Source: Alphaproteobacteria bacterium (GTDB lineage Bacteria; Pseudomonadota; Alphaproteobacteria; JAPULJ01). From it: DNA of 39,696 bases. Location: positions 1-39,696 of the forward strand of contig JAPULJ010000348.1 of NCBI GenBank assembly GCA_027295145.1. The letters are read 5' to 3'. Of this stretch, positions 4,876 to 37,757 are shown piece after piece (the first letter of the stretch is position 1; every line of letters starts with the position of its first letter). Both the position numbers and the translations under genes were made by a program. The notes beneath the pieces are model-generated. The model worked only from the letters and a program-made list of their open reading frames with translations. It ran no database searches and was not told the origin of the DNA.

Positions 4876-5706
4876 ATGATGTCAAAGCGAGCCGATCCTA
4901 CCCAAGGCGAAATGGTCGCCGCCCTGCGCTGGCAAGTCGAGGCGGGCGCCGACGAGGCGGTCGGTGAATTGCCCATCGACCGCTACGCTGCCGCGCGCGC
5001 GGCAAAGCCCGCACCGACGCCCGCGCCTACAACCTCACCAAAAAAATCTCCACCCCGCCCCGCCCCGGCGCCGCTGGTCTCGGCCGAAGCGCAGCGCGCC
5101 AACGCCCGTGCGCTGGCCGCTGGTGCCGGCTCGCTGGACGCGTTGCGCCAGGCGGTCGAGGATTTCGACGGCTGCGCGCTCAAGCTGACGGCGACCAACA
5201 CTGTCTTCGCCGACGGCGATCCGTCGAGCGACACGATGTTCATCGGCGAGGCGCCGGGGGCCGAAGAGGACCGCCAGGGCCTGCCCTTCGTCGGCGTCTC
5301 GGGCCAACTCCTCGACCGCATGATCGCCTGCATCGGACTTGAACGCGGCGGCCAGGGCCGCGCCGGCGCCTATATCTCGAACATGCTGTTCTGGCGGCCA
5401 CCCGGCAACAGAAACCCCTCGGCCGACGAGATCGCCACCTGCCTGCCATTCGTCGCCCGCCATATCGAACTCGCCGCTCCCAAGCTCCTGGTCTTCGTTG
5501 GCGGCACCGCTGCCAAGACCATGCTGCAGACCACCACCGGCATCATGCGCCTGCGCGGTCGCTGGTTCGAATACGAGACCCCCGACGGCGCCACGATCCC
5601 GGCCACGCCAATCTTCCACCCAGCCTACCTCTTGCGCTCGCCAGCCCAGAAACGCGAAGCCTGGCGCGACCTGCTGGCGATCAAGGCAAAGCTCGACGGG
5701 GCTTAA
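4876..5706 (+). CDS. uracil-DNA glycosylase, family 4-like
   Basis: [77 protein letters not shown]; the longer ORF from 4465 is antisense to ETF-QO, so the ATG at 4876 is preferred. Confidence 0.93.
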
Positions 5707-5775
5707 ACGGTGTGCCGATAACTCTTACGGCAGCGTCTTCGGACTTACGGTTACGGCGGCCATTGTCTAGGTCCT
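5655..5775 (+). repeat. direct repeat A, copy 1 (UDG 3' end plus downstream noncoding)
   Basis: hand alignment to 9594-9712: about 87% identity, two 1-nt gaps, including a 30-nt identical block tgctggcgatcaaggcaaagctcgacgggg and a shared gacttacggttacggcggc. Confidence 0.92.
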
Positions 5776-6021
5776 ATTTTGACCAAGGCTGTGTAAATAA
5801 TCGGTCCGGATGAGCGTTTGTGTAACAGTAGAATCTGATTTTGCGGATGCGTGGATCATTCTTGCCTGCGACGACAGCTAGTCGAAATCATTGTTGCGCG
5901 CTCGGACTTCGCAAATCGTTTTCGCACCGCCTGGACCCAATGCCGAAATTTGGCCTCGATGGACAGGATCGCCCACTAAACGTAGACTTTGGCCGGACCG
6001 CGACGGAGTGGAGGCCGCTAG

Positions 6022-9000
6022 ATGGCCGAGGACATCTCGCAATGGCTTGACAGCATTGGCCTCGGCCAGTACGCGCGGGCGTTCGCTGACAACGGTATCG
6101 ACATAGAAGCACTGCCATATCTTCGGGACGAGGACTTTGAACAGCTTGGGGTTCTGTTGGGCCATATGCGCAGACTCCAAGCCGCCATAAGAACCCTACC
6201 CGCCAACGATTCTCCCACCCGATCAATCCAACCTCCGAGCCCGGAACCTGAAGCCCATCCCGCTGAGGCTGAGCGGCGCCAACTGACCGTGATGTTCTGC
6301 GATCTGGTTGGTTCGACAGCGCTGTCTCAAAAACTCGACCCGGAGGATTTACGCGATGTCATGCGGAGCTATCAAGACGCCGTAGTGGATGCTGTTTCGC
6401 GATTTGGAGGACATGTCGCAAAATATCTAGGTGATGGTGTCCTCGCCTATTTTGGTTGGCCACAGGCTTATGAGGATCAGTCTGATCGTGCGGTTCGCGC
6501 GGGTCTTGACGCGGTCTCGGCGGTGGCAAGGCTGACGCTCGACAATGGCCAACCACTGGCGGCGCGCGTCGGTATCGCCACCGGCCAGGTGGTGGTTGGA
6601 GACTTGGTAGGAAAGACCGGCCGTGAAACCGAGGCGGTGACCGGGCAGACCCCGAACCTCGCCGCGCGCCTGCAGAGCCTGGCCGAACAGAACCAAGTGG
6701 TAATAGGCGCCGACACCCGCCGGCTGATCGGGACCGCATTCGAACTGGAGGATTTCGGCAAGCATGACCTCAAGGGATTTTCCCAGCCCGTGTCGGTGTG
6801 GCGTGTCGTCGGCGAAGATGTAGGGGAGAGCCGATTTGAGGTGATGCGGGGCACCACACTTGCACCTCTAATCGGCCGCGAGCATGAGCTGGGTCTGCTG
6901 TTGGAACGATGGGAATTGGCGATGGGGGGCGAGGGCCAAGTTGTGGAACTATCCGGCGAGGCGGGTATAGGCAAGTCTCGCATCGTTCGGACCTTGCTGG
7001 AGGCGATTGCCGAGAAGCCCCACTTCCGTTTGCGATATCAATGCTCACCACATCACACAAACAGCGCCTACTATCCGATCATTAGCCGAATCGAACGGGC
7101 CGCCAGTTTTGCCAGTGCCGACGATGCCGATGCCCGGCTGGACAAGCTGGAAAAGCTGCTGCGCATGTCGGGACAGGATATAAGAGCGGCCGCACCGTGG
7201 TTTGCGGCCTTGCTGTCGCTGCCGGGCGAGAAGCGTTACGGCAAGCTGGACCTAACACCCCAGCAGCTCCGTGAGCACACCTCAAAGGCGCTGATGGATC
7301 AGGTTTTGGGGCTGGCGCGACTACGGCCGGTGCTCTTCGTGCTGGAAGACGTTCATTGGATAGATCCGACAACTTGGGAATTTCTGGAACAGTTGGCTCC
7401 TGGCATCGCCGATGCTGCGGTATTGATATTGATCACCCACCGCCAGGAGGAAGCGCGGCCCTTGGCGGCGCTTTCGCATCTAACTTCGGTAACCTTGAAC
7501 CGGCTGAGCCGGGTCCAGGGCAAGAAGATCATCCTGACGGCCGGCGGCGCAGCCTTCCCAGACGAAGTAATGGACCAAATCGTGGCGCGTGCCGACGGTG
7601 TGCCTTTGTATGTGGAGGAGCTCACGCGCTCGGTCGTGGATGCTGGAGGCGAGGCCAGCGCGGCGGACATTCCCGAAACACTTCAAGCCTCTTTGACGGC
7701 GCGTCTGGACCACTTGGGCGAAGCCAAGGAGATCGTGCAGATCGGCGCCGTCATCGGGCGAGACTTCGGACACGGTTTGCTGGCTGCTGTGGCCGACCGA
7801 ACCGAGATTGAACTGGCCACTGCTCTCGACCGGATAGTCCGCTCCGAATTGGTGTTTCGACGCGGTGTACCGCCAGATGCCACCTATACCTTCAAGCACG
7901 CGTTGGTCCAGGACGCCGCCTATCAATTGCTTCTCAAGCCGATGCGTCAGGACCTCCACCGGCAGGTGGCTGAGCAGTTGGAAAGCCGGTTCCTTGAAGT
8001 GACACAGACCCAGCCAGAGCTGTTGGCCCATCACTATATCGAGGCGGGGTTGGCCGAGAAGTCGGTGCCCTATTGGTTCAAGGCCGGCCAACAGGCGGTT
8101 GAGCGCTCCGCCAATCTGGAAGCAATCGTGCATCTGACCAGGGGGCGGGCGCTTCTGGTCGAGCTGCCGGCAAGCGCCGAGCGAGATCTGCAAGAGCTAG
8201 AATTTTGTCTGGCCTTGGGTCCGGCCTTCATGTCCACCAAGGGGCTCGCGGCGGCGGAAGCCGAGGAGATTTATGTGCATGCCCGCAAACTCAGCCAGTC
8301 CATCGACCAGGCAGCTCTATCGTTTCAGGCCGCCTGGGGTCTTTGGCTGGTCTTCCAACAGCGTGGCCAGATCGATCTGGCGCAAACGGCGACCGAAGAG
8401 GTTCTGTTGCTTGCCGAGCGGCAGAAGGAGAACGTGGATTACTCGCTACAGGCGCATCATGCCGCCTGGACGACGCAATTGTTCATCGGCAAATTTGCCA
8501 CAAGTCAGACCCACATCGTGGAAGGCGAGGCGCTTTACGACATCGAAAAGCACCGCAACCACGCCTTCATCTATGGCGGCCATGACCCCGGGGTCTGCGC
8601 CAAGACCACCGCCTCGGAGACGCTCTGTCTGTTGGGATACGCCGAGCAGGCGGTGAAAAAAGCGGTGGAAGGGGTGGCTTTGGCGGAACGGCTGTCCCAT
8701 CCCTTCAGCTTGGTCATGGCCCACTATTTCATGGGCCAGGTCCATCAGTATCGCCTGGAGCCCGCTATCGTTCGCACCCACGCCCAAGTAACCTTCACGA
8801 TGTGCGAATCGCACGGCTTTGAGAGCTACAAGGCACAAGCGGCAGTGCTTCTGGGTTGGGCGACCGCGGCCGGAGGCGAATGCGAGACCGGCATAGCGCA
8901 AATCCGCGAAGGCTTGGCTGCCTGGCAGTCGACCGGTACCGGCATGCGCCGCCCCTATTTTCTGGCGCTCCTCGCCGATGCCCTGCTGCTCGCCGACCAA

Positions 9001-9351
9001 ACCGAGGAAGGGCTGAATATTATCGCAGAAGCTGAGGCTCTAATCGAACGCACGGGCGAAACCCGTTGGCATGCTGAAACGGTGCGCTTGAAGGGTGCGC
9101 TAATGGACCGCACCGGTGCCGCGACAGAGGACATCGAGGCCACCTACCAACGCGCTTTGGAAATCGCGCGCGGACAGGAAGCACGGTGTTTGCAGCTAAG
9201 AGCAGCGACGAGTCTCGGCCAACTTTGGCACGGCCGAGGCAAGGGAAGCGAAACGCGCGAACTCCTTGGCCCTCTTTACGCCTGGTTCACCGAAGGCTTC
9301 GAGACCCCAGACGTAATACGCGCAAGGGCGCTCCTGGACGAATTGCCTTGA
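6022..9351 (+). CDS. SAM domain - class III adenylate/guanylate cyclase - AAA ATPase - TPR protein
   Basis: N-terminal SAM-like region (ISQWLDSIGLGQYARAFADNGIDIEALPYLRDEDFEQLGV), cyclase motifs (LTVMFCDLVGSTALSQKL, KYLGDGVLAYFGWPQAYEDQSDRAVRAGL), Walker A GEAGIGKSR, long helical C-terminus. Confidence 0.93.
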   Translation: MAEDISQWLDSIGLGQYARAFADNGIDIEALPYLRDEDFEQLGVLLGHMRRLQAAIRTLPANDSPTRSIQPPSPEPEAHPAEAERRQLTVMFCDLVGSTALSQKLDPEDLRDVMRSYQDAVVDAVSRFGGHVAKYLGDGVLAYFGWPQAYEDQSDRAVRAGLDAVSAVARLTLDNGQPLAARVGIATGQVVVGDLVGKTGRETEAVTGQTPNLAARLQSLAEQNQVVIGADTRRLIGTAFELEDFGKHDLKGFSQPVSVWRVVGEDVGESRFEVMRGTTLAPLIGREHELGLLLERWELAMGGEGQVVELSGEAGIGKSRIVRTLLEAIAEKPHFRLRYQCSPHHTNSAYYPIISRIERAASFASADDADARLDKLEKLLRMSGQDIRAAAPWFAALLSLPGEKRYGKLDLTPQQLREHTSKALMDQVLGLARLRPVLFVLEDVHWIDPTTWEFLEQLAPGIADAAVLILITHRQEEARPLAALSHLTSVTLNRLSRVQGKKIILTAGGAAFPDEVMDQIVARADGVPLYVEELTRSVVDAGGEASAADIPETLQASLTARLDHLGEAKEIVQIGAVIGRDFGHGLLAAVADRTEIELATALDRIVRSELVFRRGVPPDATYTFKHALVQDAAYQLLLKPMRQDLHRQVAEQLESRFLEVTQTQPELLAHHYIEAGLAEKSVPYWFKAGQQAVERSANLEAIVHLTRGRALLVELPASAERDLQELEFCLALGPAFMSTKGLAAAEAEEIYVHARKLSQSIDQAALSFQAAWGLWLVFQQRGQIDLAQTATEEVLLLAERQKENVDYSLQAHHAAWTTQLFIGKFATSQTHIVEGEALYDIEKHRNHAFIYGGHDPGVCAKTTASETLCLLGYAEQAVKKAVEGVALAERLSHPFSLVMAHYFMGQVHQYRLEPAIVRTHAQVTFTMCESHGFESYKAQAAVLLGWATAAGGECETGIAQIREGLAAWQSTGTGMRRPYFLALLADALLLADQTEEGLNIIAEAEALIERTGETRWHAETVRLKGALMDRTGAATEDIEATYQRALEIARGQEARCLQLRAATSLGQLWHGRGKGSETRELLGPLYAWFTEGFETPDVIRARALLDELP

Positions 9352-9398
9352 GTCTGTTTATCGCTGAGGCTGTTCTCTCGGTTATCTATGCATGCGCA

Positions 9399-9481
9399 CT
9401 CTCGGTCAGTAGTCTGCATATGGATCAAGTTAATTTGGTGAGTAACCAAAAATTCATGGGCTCAATCAATAGATTGATAGG
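9399..9481 (+). repeat. direct repeat B, copy 1 (B'), noncoding, downstream of cyclase
   Basis: gapless hand alignment to 11507-11589, about 75% identity over 83 bp (ctctcggtca...tggatcaag...ttcatgggct...tagattga.agg); weaker similarity continues to about 9540. Confidence 0.85.
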
Positions 9482-9593
9482 ATAAATTGCAGAGCGGCGT
9501 TGCCAACACGCTTTAGGCGCGCCCGCATTGCAGTCAAGCAAAGTCTCGCTGCTGGCGTGCAGCTAACAAATGTTGATCTTCAGCCTGGCGATC

Positions 9594-9712
9594 CGAAGCT
9601 TGGCAAGACATGCTGGCGATCAAGGCAAAGCTCGACGGGGATTGAGGGGCTGGCCGATCACTCTTACGGCAGCGTCAGCGGACTTACGGTTACGGCGGCA
9701 TTGTCTGGTCCT
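9594..9712 (+). pseudogene. direct repeat A, copy 2 (A'): 3' remnant of a second UDG gene plus downstream noncoding
   Basis: one frame reads [17 protein letters not shown]-stop, matching [20 protein letters not shown]-stop; no upstream UDG coding sequence. Confidence 0.88.
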
Positions 9713-9771
9713 GTAATGACTCTAAACGGACCATGCGCAACGGCTCCATGACAGAAAATGCGCGATAGTTG

Positions 9772-9822
9772 TTGACGGAAAATCAAATCTCGCTTATGTA
9801 TCCTGACCGGTATATATACATA
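9772..9822 (+). promoter_or_regulatory. putative sigma70 promoter with overlapping palindromic operator
   Basis: TTGACG (9772-9777), 17 nt, TATGTA (9795-9800); inverted repeat TATGTAT-N14-ATACATA (9795-9801/9816-9822) overlapping the -10, just upstream of the Ldi-like ORF. Confidence 0.6.
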
Positions 9823-9838
9823 ATTGAGGCAGCTTTGG

Positions 9839-10867
9839 ATGCAGACGGACACAGCCACGGATATCGCGGCACAACGGCTTGATGCCTGCTACGCCGGCGC
9901 CAACCCGGATTGGCGGCAGTTCTACACGCCGCGTCAGGAGATGCGGAACTTCGCTACGCGCTACCATCTCGTGTATCCAGCCCTGTCCTATTTCGTTGGA
10001 CTGAAACAAGACCCGGATCTTACCGATAACTACCGGCCCAAGCTGGACACGATTTACAAAGGCCTTCTGGATCAGCGCGTGTGGAATTACTGGCATTCCG
10101 AGCTAAACGAGCCGTCGCCACCGCTCAAGGAACGCAATCTGACATATGCCGGGCGGCTGGCTACATTTGTCGGGTTCTACATCGACGCGTTTGGAGAACC
10201 GCCCGCGGAGAAGATCGAAGTCGATGGACACGTAACGGATTACCGGGAACTTTCCGCCAATCTACACCACCAGATGACGTCGGAACCAAGTCGCGGCGTC
10301 ACCTGCTACCACCACCAATCGATGGTCATGTGCAACGCACATATGCTGATCAACAACGTCTTGCATGACCGCCTGTATGGAACGAAATTTTCACGCGCGA
10401 ACGAAGCTTGGCTGGCAACGACGCAAACGAGCCTGTTGCGCGATGAAGACACCGGACCGCTGTTCTATTATGGCACCAAGGCGCGCAGCGCTCTGCCCGA
10501 GGAAACGACGAAGTCAGTCGGCGCAGATATCTGGGCGCTGTTTTTGATGAGCGGGGTCGTGCCCGAGCGCGTTTCCGCCTGGTTCGAGACCTGGCAACGC
10601 AACATCAGCTACGAAGACCACCGAGCCCGCGTATTGATCGGCGAGAAGCAGGAGAAGTTCGAAATCTCCTCTACGTCGTTGGCGACCGGCTGGGCCTATT
10701 GCCTGTCACGGGAACTCGGCCAGCAGGTCCGGGCCGAGTTGCTTAGGAATGCGCTGGCAAAACAGGCCGAAGAGGGCTTTGAGCTTGATCCGCTGCTGTC
10801 AGGACTCTTCCTGCTCGGCGACCGGCTGCAGCCCGGCTCCTTTCACAAACTCGTCACCGGTGGGTAG
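9839..10867 (+). CDS. linalool dehydratase/isomerase (Ldi)-like protein
   Basis: CYHHQSMVMC places two cysteines nine residues apart, as in Ldi Cys171/Cys180; NLTYAGR and NNVLHDRLYGTKF resemble Ldi NIMYKGH and WVYDRLHGTDY; ATG at 9839 with upstream GAGG preferred over TTG at 9824. Confidence 0.82.
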   Translation: MQTDTATDIAAQRLDACYAGANPDWRQFYTPRQEMRNFATRYHLVYPALSYFVGLKQDPDLTDNYRPKLDTIYKGLLDQRVWNYWHSELNEPSPPLKERNLTYAGRLATFVGFYIDAFGEPPAEKIEVDGHVTDYRELSANLHHQMTSEPSRGVTCYHHQSMVMCNAHMLINNVLHDRLYGTKFSRANEAWLATTQTSLLRDEDTGPLFYYGTKARSALPEETTKSVGADIWALFLMSGVVPERVSAWFETWQRNISYEDHRARVLIGEKQEKFEISSTSLATGWAYCLSRELGQQVRAELLRNALAKQAEEGFELDPLLSGLFLLGDRLQPGSFHKLVTGG

Positions 10868-10878
10868 TCGAAGCGGTC

Positions 10879-11457
10879 ATGCGAGGTACAGCAGACAAAA
10901 CGCGTAAAAAGATACTCAAAGCAGCCAGCAAGCTTTTCTACGAAAATGGCATTCGCAGCGTCGGCGTTGATCTGGTTGCCGAGACGGCGGGAGTGACCAA
11001 GCGTACGCTCTACTATCACTTCAAATCGAAAGATGTATTGATCGCCGCCTACCTGGAAGCACGCAACGAGCCCGTTCTCGCCGGCCTGAAGTCAGCGATT
11101 GAAAATGCAAATGGCAGCCCCGCCGACAGGGTTGCAGCGCTTTTCGACATGTTGGCGGCAGGGAGTCGCGCACCGACATGGCGGGGCTGCCCATTCGCAC
11201 GAATGGCCGCGGAGCTTCCGGCTGAGCGGACACATCCGGCCCGGCAGATTGCGTCAGATCACAAACACGCCTTCGAGGCGTGGCTTACCGGGTGGTTTCG
11301 GGCCCAAGGAGTGGGCCGATCACAAATGCTCGCGCAGCAGATCATTGTGCTCGTGGACGGCGCACTCACGCAGATGCTGATCCATGATGACCCTGGCTAT
11401 GCCAAAGCCTCCGGCATGGCCGCCAGATCGTTGATTGACGCGGTCGGCGGGAATTGA
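10879..11457 (+). CDS. TetR/AcrR family transcriptional regulator
   Basis: N-terminal HTH: TRKKILKAASKLFYENGIRSVGVDLVAETAGVTKRTLYYHFKSKDVLIAAYL; starts 11 nt after the Ldi-like stop. Confidence 0.93.
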   Translation: MRGTADKTRKKILKAASKLFYENGIRSVGVDLVAETAGVTKRTLYYHFKSKDVLIAAYLEARNEPVLAGLKSAIENANGSPADRVAALFDMLAAGSRAPTWRGCPFARMAAELPAERTHPARQIASDHKHAFEAWLTGWFRAQGVGRSQMLAQQIIVLVDGALTQMLIHDDPGYAKASGMAARSLIDAVGGN

Positions 11458-11506
11458 GGCAAAAGCCGTGATATCGACTGCCCCCGACTAATCGTGGATA
11501 TCGGGT

Positions 11507-11589
11507 CTCTCGGTCAACAGACTGCAAGTGGATCAAGGTAAACCGTCGGTTAATCATAATTTCATGGGCTTTATCTATAGATTGACAGG
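11507..11589 (+). repeat. direct repeat B, copy 2, downstream of tetR
   Basis: see B' at 9399-9481. Confidence 0.85.
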
Positions 11590-11746
11590 AAGGATTACGG
11601 GGCGGTGCAGCCTGATATCTGATGCGCCCTCCCGTTGCGCTCAGGCGAGGGATGATTATCTCTTGCGGCACGAATAGGTTCAAAAGGCGGCTGAAATGCG
11701 CCATGTTCATCAGCGCGTGCCGTAGACTATCGACAAAGGGGGCTCG

Positions 11747-13807
11747 ATGAGCCGATTTGCCGTTTTGTTGACCCGTCCATTGATCGTGGCCGCGGCGATA
11801 GCGATCGCTGGCTCCTGGGGTTTCGCCCAAGCCGCCGAAACGATCAATTCCGAAACCCCCGGCGCCCTCATCGCGCCGCGGCTTGAGCCAACGGCACAGC
11901 CCCCGGCCAATCCTCCCCAGGCAAAACCGCAGACGGCCCCCCAAGCCAAGCCGCAGGCCATTCCTGCACCTATCATTGTAACCGATGGGACGCTCAATCC
12001 TCCGGCCAAGCCCGCTGCGAGCGTTCTGGCCAGGCCCAGTGCCAATCCCACAGGCGCCAGGCCCAGCGGGGCCACACCTACTGCCTCACCGCAAGCTAAA
12101 CAGGAACCAGCCAAGCCGGTAAATACCACCCTGCCCGAGATCCTCAAGCCCGCCGATGTCGAGCGCTACCGGCGGATATTCGCGCTTCAGAACCGCGGTG
12201 CGTGGCGCCAGGCCGACCGCGAGATCAGGCGGCTTTCCGATCGTGTCCTGCTCGGCCACGTGCTCTTCCAGCGTTATATGAGCCGCCGCTACCGCAGCCG
12301 CTACGCCCAATTGCGGTCCTGGATGGCGCGCTACGCCGACCACCCGCAAGCCAAGCGCATCTACAAGCTCGCCCTGCGCCGCAAGCCGCGCCGCGCCCAC
12401 TATCCGCGCGGGCCGGTGCGGGTCGCCCTGGGCGGCGGCGGTGTCGCGCTTCGATATACCGCCGGCGTGCGTCCCGCGCCGCGGCCCCGTCTGTCGCGAC
12501 GCCAGCGCCGCCAGGCGCGCTACCTGCGCCGGATAACCGGCCGCCATATCGCCCGTGCCCGCTTCGCCAGGGCCGAGCGCTACCTCGCCCGCCGCGACGC
12601 CGAACGCCTCCTCGGCAAGGCCGGCTACGACCGCCTGCGCGCGCGTCTCGCTTTCGCCTATCTGGGCAAGGGCAACGCCGAGAAGGCCTATGAGATCGCC
12701 ACCCTGGCAGCCGAGCGTTCGGGCGAATACGTGCCCTTCGCCGGTTGGACCGCCGGGCTCGCCGCTTTCCGCCTGGGCAAGTATGCCGACGCCGCCGCCC
12801 GCTTCGAGACGATGTCGCAAGCCGGGGCTTCGAGCTGGACCCGTTCGGCCGGCGCCTATTGGGCGGCGCGCGCCCACCTTCGCGACGGCAAGCCCGAGAA
12901 GGTCAATAGCTGGCTCGACACGGCGGCGCAGAACGCCCGAACTTTCTATGGCATCCTGGCCCGCCACCAGCTCGGTCTGGCGACCAGGTTCAACTGGACC
13001 ATCTCAGCCAAATCGGGGGCCGACATGGACCGCCTGCTCGAATCGGCGGCGGCGGTGCGGGCCATCGCCCTCGTACAGGTCGGCCAGAACACCCGCGCCG
13101 GGCGCGAGTTGCGGCGGCTCTATCGTGGCGGCGACGCCGGTATCGGCGCGGCCATACTGGCGATCGCCGAGAAGGGCAAGCTGGCCAGCGCCTCGATGCG
13201 TATCGCCCGGCTGATGATCAATCGCGACGGCAAGGCGCTCGATGGCGGGCTCTATCCGGTGCCCCATTGGAGGCCGAAGGACGGCTTCACGATCGATAGA
13301 GCGCTGGTCTACGCCGTCATGCGCCAGGAATCGGCATTCCGGACGCGGGCCCGCAGCCGGGTCGGCGCTCGCGGGCTGATGCAGCTGATGCCGCGCACGG
13401 CGAGCCTCGTCGCACGCGATCGCTCATTGCGCCGCCGGCGCGGGCGCAACAAGCTCTTCGATCCCTCGCTCAATATTTCGCTGGGCCAGAAATATATCAC
13501 TTTCCTGCTCGGCAAGGACGGCATCAACGGCAACCTCATCTTCACATTCGCCGGCTACAACGCCGGCCCCGGGGCGGTGCTCAAATGGCAGGCCTCGATC
13601 GACCACCGCGACGATCCTCTGTTCTTCCTCGAGAGCATTCCTTACCGCGAGACTCGCGGCTATGTGACCCGGGTGATGGCCAATTTGTGGGCTTATCGCG
13701 GGCGGCTCGGCCAGAAACCATATTCGCTGGATCAGGTCGCCGCCGGCAGGTGGCCAACCTACAAGGCGCAGGACGTCCCCGGCGTTGCGGCAATGCCGAC
13801 GCAATGA
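11747..13807 (+). CDS. soluble lytic murein transglycosylase (SLT domain)
   Basis: IDRALVYAVMRQESAFRTRARSRVGARGLMQLMPRTA...FTFAGYNAGPGAVLKW...IPYRETRGYVTRVMANLWAYR; Pro/Ala-rich N-terminus after signal-like segment. Confidence 0.95.
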   Translation: MSRFAVLLTRPLIVAAAIAIAGSWGFAQAAETINSETPGALIAPRLEPTAQPPANPPQAKPQTAPQAKPQAIPAPIIVTDGTLNPPAKPAASVLARPSANPTGARPSGATPTASPQAKQEPAKPVNTTLPEILKPADVERYRRIFALQNRGAWRQADREIRRLSDRVLLGHVLFQRYMSRRYRSRYAQLRSWMARYADHPQAKRIYKLALRRKPRRAHYPRGPVRVALGGGGVALRYTAGVRPAPRPRLSRRQRRQARYLRRITGRHIARARFARAERYLARRDAERLLGKAGYDRLRARLAFAYLGKGNAEKAYEIATLAAERSGEYVPFAGWTAGLAAFRLGKYADAAARFETMSQAGASSWTRSAGAYWAARAHLRDGKPEKVNSWLDTAAQNARTFYGILARHQLGLATRFNWTISAKSGADMDRLLESAAAVRAIALVQVGQNTRAGRELRRLYRGGDAGIGAAILAIAEKGKLASASMRIARLMINRDGKALDGGLYPVPHWRPKDGFTIDRALVYAVMRQESAFRTRARSRVGARGLMQLMPRTASLVARDRSLRRRRGRNKLFDPSLNISLGQKYITFLLGKDGINGNLIFTFAGYNAGPGAVLKWQASIDHRDDPLFFLESIPYRETRGYVTRVMANLWAYRGRLGQKPYSLDQVAAGRWPTYKAQDVPGVAAMPTQ

Positions 13808-16992: not shown

Positions 16993-17029
16993 GCTACAGA
17001 TTTCGGGCAATCCACTTGCAGAACGACCG

Positions 17030-17056
17030 GCGCCGGGCCTTTGAAACGCCCGGCGC
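17030..17056. terminator. hairpin between convergent genes
   Basis: GCGCCGGGC-N9-GCCCGGCGC, perfect 9-bp stem between stops of the DUF2852-like gene (+) and TIGR04282-like gene (-). Confidence 0.6.
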
Positions 17057-17682
17057 TAATCGTTTGTGCCTACCCCACGTGATTTTCGCCAACGCCGGTA
17101 CGCCGGTCCCTCATCGATATCTTCCAGCATTTCCAGCCGCGCCACGCGCGCTTCCGGCGACAGGTTCGCCGCCGTGTCGGTCAGCGCGTGCTCGCTCGAC
17201 CAGCGCACGTTATCGAACAGTCTCGGCCGCCGGAACCAGGCGCGCGCGGCGATCAGCCAGTAGCCGCCGTCGCGGGCCGGGCCGAAGACCACATCGTGGC
17301 CGTTGAGCCCGGCAAACGCCTCGCCGACAATCCTTGCATCGAGCGCCGGCACATCGCTGCCGACGATGGCGCAGGCGCCCGGCGGCAGGCCCACCAGGGC
17401 CCGGCCCATGCGTTGCCCGATGTCGCCCGGACCTTGGGGAATAATCGTGATCCCAAGGCGGCTCGCCAGCCTCCAATGCCCAGGGCCCGCACACAGATCG
17501 GGGGTGACCGCGAGCCAAGTGCGCCATCGCCTGTCCCGGCCGACCCGGCGCAACAGCCCGTCGAGACTGGCCCGGTAGAAGCGTAGCGCCTCGACCGCGC
17601 CAATCTCGCGCGCCAGGCGTCGCTTGACCGCGCCGAGGCGGGGGGCCCGGGCGAAGATCACAAGGTGGCGGTCTTGCCTCAT
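17056..17682 (-). CDS. TIGR04282-like (DUF2064) rSAM/selenodomain-associated transferase 1
   Basis: LVIFARAPRLGAVKRRLAREIGAVEALRFYR, CAIVGSDVPALDARIV, DVVFGPARDGGYWLIA. Confidence 0.88.
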   Translation of the reverse strand: MRQDRHLVIFARAPRLGAVKRRLAREIGAVEALRFYRASLDGLLRRVGRDRRWRTWLAVTPDLCAGPGHWRLASRLGITIIPQGPGDIGQRMGRALVGLPPGACAIVGSDVPALDARIVGEAFAGLNGHDVVFGPARDGGYWLIAARAWFRRPRLFDNVRWSSEHALTDTAANLSPEARVARLEMLEDIDEGPAYRRWRKSRGVGTND

Positions 17683-37688: not shown

Positions 37689-37757
37689 TAACAATAAATC
37701 GGAGACAGTATACTTATTATTACTGATAATAGGTATACTGTCTCCGATTTATTGTTA
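37689..37757. repeat. 69-bp palindrome, REP/MITE-like
   Basis: perfect 25-nt arms TAACAATAAATCGGAGACAGTATAC / GTATACTGTCTCCGATTTATTGTTA (37689-37713/37733-37757); inner TTATTAT/ATAATAG extends the stem. Confidence 0.93.

Follow-up and report, generated by a model that had tools for sequence, protein, structure and literature searches.

Organization of the locus

The interval between the genes for a uracil-DNA glycosylase (UDG) and a soluble lytic transglycosylase (slt) raises the question of how two cargo modules came to lie in tandem, among paired and diverged repeats, in a single intergenic slot. It was analysed in a stretch of 39,696 nucleotides, here called the window (positions 1–39,696, forward strand, of contig JAPULJ010000348.1, assembly GCA_027295145.1), from an Alphaproteobacteria bacterium (GTDB lineage Bacteria; Pseudomonadota; Alphaproteobacteria; JAPULJ01). 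The source assembly is fragmented (5.4 Mb, 813 contigs, 6.8% contamination). The order along the window is ETF-QO (minus strand), UDG, A, cyclase, B', A', Ldi, tetR, B, slt, and the features are as follows.

4882–5706, plus strand: UDG (uracil-DNA glycosylase superfamily), left core gene of the slot (PF03167, 112.9 bits; ETF-QO/UDG/slt synteny; start codon approximate)
5655–5783, plus strand: repeat A, comprising the last 16 codons of UDG, the stop and 3' flank; from ~5768 onward it overlaps the left end of R
5768–5950, plus strand: R, a degenerate element of MITE type whose terminal inverted repeats measure ~34 bp, kin to a DUF772/IS1182-like insertion sequence in the same genome
5953–5993, plus strand: short block GGACAGGATCGYCCACTAAACGTARACTTT adjoining R, also in contig C294
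6022–9351, plus strand: cargo 1, a SAM–class III nucleotide cyclase–AAA ATPase protein of 1109 aa (PF00536, PF00211, PF13191)
9399–9504, plus strand: repeat B' (core 9399–9482, 76% identical to B)
9505–9593, plus strand: stretch at the B'–A' junction, resembling neither the slt leader nor UDG
9594–9720, plus strand: repeat A', the 16-codon tail of a diverged UDG, stop and 3' flank
9794–9823, no strand assigned: inverted repeat TTATGTAT-N14-ATACATAA before Ldi, candidate TetR operator
9839–10867, plus strand: cargo 2a, linalool dehydratase/isomerase-like (Ldi-like) protein (PF18566, 57.9 bits; PDB 6thm, E 5e-15; G183 orthologue, 61%; start codon approximate)
10879–11457, plus strand: cargo 2b, TetR-family regulator (PF00440, 58.2 bits; G183 neighbour 51% identical)
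11507–11612, plus strand: repeat B, upstream of slt
11747–13807, plus strand: slt, right core gene of the slot (PF01464, 88.5 bits)

Only three genes lie inside the slot (cyclase, Ldi-like, TetR), none of them an integrase, and neither a tRNA nor an Rfam RNA match was found at the locus. The original prediction had listed integrase, transposase and tRNA as not visible; this holds for tRNA and, among the slot genes, for integrase, but positions 5768–5950 are a MITE with an autonomous relative in the genome. Elsewhere the window contains two near-perfect palindromes, one of 69 bp (37689–37757; AT-rich, with a small loop) and one of 43 bp (17022–17064), both terminator- or REP-like.

Two pairs of diverged flank repeats

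On comparison of the window with itself, A/A' and B'/B stand out as two direct repeats. A and A' (5655–5783 and 9594–9720) are identical at 112 of 130 alignment columns (86%), with a local alignment score of 158 against a best of 28 for shuffled sequences, and a blastn E value of 1e-33 inside the window. Identity by part is 46/52 in the UDG-coding segment, 55/60 plus four gap columns in the 3' flank, and 11/14 in the last 14 bases. B' and B (9399–9482 and 11507–11590) are identical at 64 of 84 positions (76%; local score 68, shuffle maximum 29; blastn E 2e-10). The paired repeats and their predicted order around the cargos are therefore real, with similarities far above those of shuffles. Their divergence is unequal: B (64/84) has changed more than the untranslated part of A (55/60), with an uncorrected Fisher p of 0.024.

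Repeat A consists of the final 16 UDG codons and the stop, followed by ~61 bp of 3' flank. A' retains the UDG reading frame and stop, and changes R to Q and L to M, both of which are also present in UDG orthologues. Similarity between A and A' reaches 5783, taking in the first ~15 bases of R; the description of A as UDG 3' end plus UTR stands to ~5768, but the sequence beyond is a dispersed MITE-like repeat and not slot flank. Within the 5.4-Mb genome A is confined to its two window sites, B' was not detected outside this locus, and the B'–A' stretch had no other match. A and B are thus not dispersed repeats, the alternative against which the original prediction had been framed. That prediction also took A...B'A'...B as two alternative occupants of one slot joined in tandem; the order is seen, but 89 bp (9505–9593) between B' and A' match neither flank.

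No similarity to B or B' was detected in the slt leaders of two relatives, G063 and G078, so the assignment of B as the ancestral slt leader rests on position. B and B' also lack similarity to the module end of the Ldi-tetR pair in G183, and B' has no clear match downstream of cyclase paralogues. The spacing from cargo stop codon to repeat is near-equal, with 47 bp to B' (9351–9399) and 49 bp to B (11457–11507), which may be chance or a hint that B belongs to the cargo side. Structured RNAs were considered for A and B and rejected: A, A' and B fold no better than shuffles, the folding signal of B' is weak, and there is no Rfam match.

A variable slot between UDG and slt

Relatives were compared across other orders of Alphaproteobacteria, the window's own order being represented by this single genome. 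A genome-contig search with UDG gave two matches at 49–50%, in Ferrovibrio and an unclassified alphaproteobacterium; none was found in viral contigs or in G183. Synteny of ETF-QO, UDG and slt is widespread in relatives. Among 59 linked loci, defined by slt following UDG inside the fetched stretch (13 further loci without slt in reach are omitted), 53 have no gene-sized gap and 6 are occupied by other genes. This agrees with the predicted single intergenic slot, with the 3' end of UDG on one side and the slt leader on the other, while the term hotspot is not borne out by 6 occupied junctions in 59, a figure for UDG–slt alone.

The best UDG match, G063, has an empty junction of 141 bp. In G078 the slot holds genes for a metallophosphoesterase/laminin-G protein, a DUF2270 protein and an M23 peptidase. 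Two Ferrovibrio-like genomes have an MFS gene, probably from one event, G193 has an EamA gene, and G300 and G002 have single small ORFs. With syntenic flanks and both empty and differently occupied states, the UDG–slt interval is a variable gene slot. Two modules in tandem are not the universal form, and relatives include slots that are empty, carry a single cargo or carry other cargo, as had been anticipated, but no relative with only the window cyclase or only Ldi-tetR was found in the 59 loci across orders. Nor was a UDG tail matching A' found among the genomes compared, which belong to other orders. Without its two cargos the window slot would shrink to about 61 bp of A flank and 240 bp of slt leader, near the size of the empty gaps in relatives.

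The G193 assembly contains two versions of the whole locus (L145 and L146, on contigs C53 and C140), 76–80% identical over >5 kb, of which one is empty and the other has the EamA gene. Similarity stops at the UDG stop and returns in the slt leader, without flank duplication. The divergence of the two versions resembles that of A/A' and B'/B; they may represent a strain mixture or a large duplication.

The cargo genes

The best paralogue of the window cyclase in the same genome is just 47% identical, and the gene is therefore not a recent local copy. GC3 is 0.64–0.72 in the cargo and 0.71–0.85 in most neighbours. Low GC3 was rejected as proof of foreign cargo because cyclase paralogues elsewhere in the genome have similar values (0.67–0.71). 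Nucleotide cyclases show a large expansion in this genome: 76 matches to the cyclase protein were obtained, mostly cyclase-domain genes, with about a dozen SAM–cyclase–AAA paralogues.

The Ldi-like protein scores 57.9 bits against a PF18566 cut-off of 26.1, and its alignment to 6thm shows two cysteines spaced nine apart, matching the solved enzyme; it is accordingly a predicted enzyme of the linalool dehydratase/isomerase family. Besides the window's own, the only strong Ldi match among 386 genomes of the class is in G183, and none was found among 399 genomes of the phylum or in viral contigs and plasmids. G183 carries an adjacent Ldi and TetR pair, 61% and 51% identical to those of the window, at an unrelated locus with a cyclase gene of other architecture on one side and a methyltransferase gene on the other. 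These comparisons support Ldi-tetR as a separable two-gene module, rare, patchy in distribution and portable. An inverted repeat lies directly before Ldi at both loci (window, TTATGTAT-N14-ATACATAA; G183, TTTAGTATAC-N6-GTATACTAAA), as expected of a TetR operator, for which both are candidates, and Ldi-tetR is probably a self-regulated operon. Overall, a slot with portable cargo is supported.

A MITE at the border of the cyclase module

R is a non-coding, dispersed element of ~183 bp; its termini are inverted repeats of ~34 bp, its body is largely self-complementary, and it lies exactly at the end of A on the A/cyclase border. About nine other full or partial copies (70–79%) are present in the genome (contigs C451, C546, C636, C294, C799, C333, C314, C764, and C91), several at contig ends. 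The terminal repeat sits 44 bp before a DUF772/IS1182-like transposase in C577 and also precedes transposase fragments in C541, C129, and C689, and R therefore appears to be a MITE belonging to a resident insertion sequence, with which it has its terminal inverted repeats in common. The ends of the window copy are degenerate and a target-site duplication is not readable from them.

A cyclase paralogue on C451 is likewise preceded by R, at ~75 bp from the start codon (71 bp in the window), and the other side of this paralogue carries the start of the IS transposase. About 25 bp adjoining R are alike in the alignment of the two loci. Four of ten R copies (C277, C451, C799, C314) adjoin a cyclase-domain gene, where ~0.3–0.4 would be expected from 76 cyclase matches in 5.4 Mb (a rough, uncorrected estimate). 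The ~30-bp block GGACAGGATCGYCCACTAAACGTARACTTT is common to the window cyclase (5953–5993) and C294 (L068, 1179–1220), where a YHS-domain gene comes after it. A second short palindromic repeat family (L066, 1–262; L064, 6783–6855; L067, 2032–2104 and 3162–3224) has the motif TGTCCGCTT...AAGCGGACA in common with the outer end of R.

Origin of the tandem arrangement

Our preferred account, held tentatively and falling a little short of probable, is that a diverged second version of the slot was added beside the first, by homology on the slt side and a non-homologous join after B'. The ancestral UDG–slt junction would have been near-empty, a state seen across the class, and would have gained in this lineage the cyclase gene with the MITE as its upstream border. 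A related strain or species may then have donated a DNA fragment carrying its own occupied slot (UDG tail, A', Ldi, tetR, slt leader). Homologous recombination at slt and joining of the other end without homology, just past the recipient's old slt leader B', would yield A-cyclase-B'-A'-Ldi-tetR-B; of the donor UDG the product would therefore keep the tail only, as A'. We infer that the second allele was foreign, that events ran in this order and that the join was one-sided, by homology-facilitated illegitimate recombination. In favor of this account are the locus-specific repeats in the order A B' A' B, the slot being empty in 53 of 59 linked loci and filled by other genes in 6, the portability of Ldi-tetR, the junction at 9505–9593, unlike both flanks as an illegitimate join could leave, and the empty and occupied pair in G193, diverged like A/A' and B'/B. 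Against it, allelic import alone does not predict the unequal divergence of the A UTR and B, the 89-bp junction is filler that it leaves unaccounted for, and no donor, matching UDG tail or slot with just one of these cargos was found among the relatives compared, which are of other orders. Integration of linear DNA by homology at one end and an illegitimate join at the other has been described (PMC3240628), and slots that lack an integrase and recombine at their flanking core genes are common (PMC5635113, Oliveira et al.).

A rather unlikely alternative is tandem duplication, within the genome, of a segment from UDG tail to slt leader, with or without cargo; the two copies would then have diverged and gained or lost cargo independently, and no foreign allele would be needed. 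It would produce the order A...B'A'...B in a single step, and A' is similar enough to A for an old local copy. However, it predicts a slt leader abutting upstream UDG at the junction, which is not found, and requires each copy to have gained or lost its own cargo precisely at a later time, a process of which no relics are seen; the unequal divergence of A flank and B also speaks against it. The original prediction, that unequal recombination between alleles at B'/A' joined two alternative occupants, draws on the same repeats and slot evidence as the preferred account and differs from it solely in how the left join was made. It is quite improbable, given that B' and A' have no common homology for a crossover and that 89 bp of neither lie between them. 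One-sided homologous and illegitimate joining is mildly favored over both clean unequal crossing-over and tandem duplication: either of these would set slt leader straight against upstream UDG sequence, but this ~89-bp junction matches neither flank.

Transposition, in which the cyclase module came with or was bordered by the IS1182-like element or R and IS rearrangement left the flank repeats behind as a side effect, accords with the position of R exactly at the end of A and with the arrangement in C451. Yet a search of the right end of the window cyclase showed no terminal repeat, the whole R-to-start spacers of the window and C451 are not significantly similar (p = 0.10), and B'/B and A' are left unexplained, making this reading distinctly unlikely. 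It seems similarly doubtful that the element and its MITE partly spread the cyclase genes of this genome, with the window cyclase a copy delivered into a core-gene slot. A metagenome assembly artefact, misjoining two strain versions of the locus, might be suspected from the fragmented and partly contaminated assembly and from the two alleles in the single assembly of G193; a misjoin requires common sequence, which the B' and A' sides lack, and repeats 76–86% identical are too diverged for merging, so that this is very unlikely.

Relation to known systems

A site-specific integrative island carries an integrase gene and an att site, usually a tRNA; the present slot has no tRNA, and its genes are those for the cyclase, the Ldi-like protein and TetR. 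Some islands create a second copy of the 3' end of the gene into which they insert (tRNA or protein-gene att sites). The window likewise has a second gene 3'-end copy at the far side of inserted DNA; unlike such islands, it has no visible integrase, its copies are 14% diverged, and a second repeat pair (B) belongs with the other flank. R resembles MITEs of IS1182-like elements in length (~183 bp), in being non-coding and largely self-complementary, and in its terminal repeats common with an autonomous element, but the window copy is degenerate and lacks a defined target-site duplication.

The integrase-free UDG–slt slot fits the general model of Oliveira et al. (PMC5635113), with core-gene boundaries, variable cargo and no integrase or tRNA. 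In contrast to slots of that type, cargos in the window were added in tandem with duplicated flank pieces, not swapped, and whereas hotspots in that work denote high turnover within species and raised recombination of flanking genes, the window was compared across orders only. Homology-facilitated illegitimate recombination (PMC3240628) of linear foreign DNA with one-sided homology would likewise give the window's order of parts; the published cases are laboratory experiments, while the window is read from one old scar with an 89-bp junction.

The locus looks like a second, diverged version of a site spliced beside the first by ordinary recombination; as genome evolution this is real but fairly ordinary. 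If the preferred account is right, it would be a readable scar of cargo added beside earlier cargo, rather than swapped, at an integrase-free slot, and partial core-gene tails within intergenic regions could mark such additions. Its relevance would be mainly to the study of how accessory genes enter chromosomes without dedicated recombinases.
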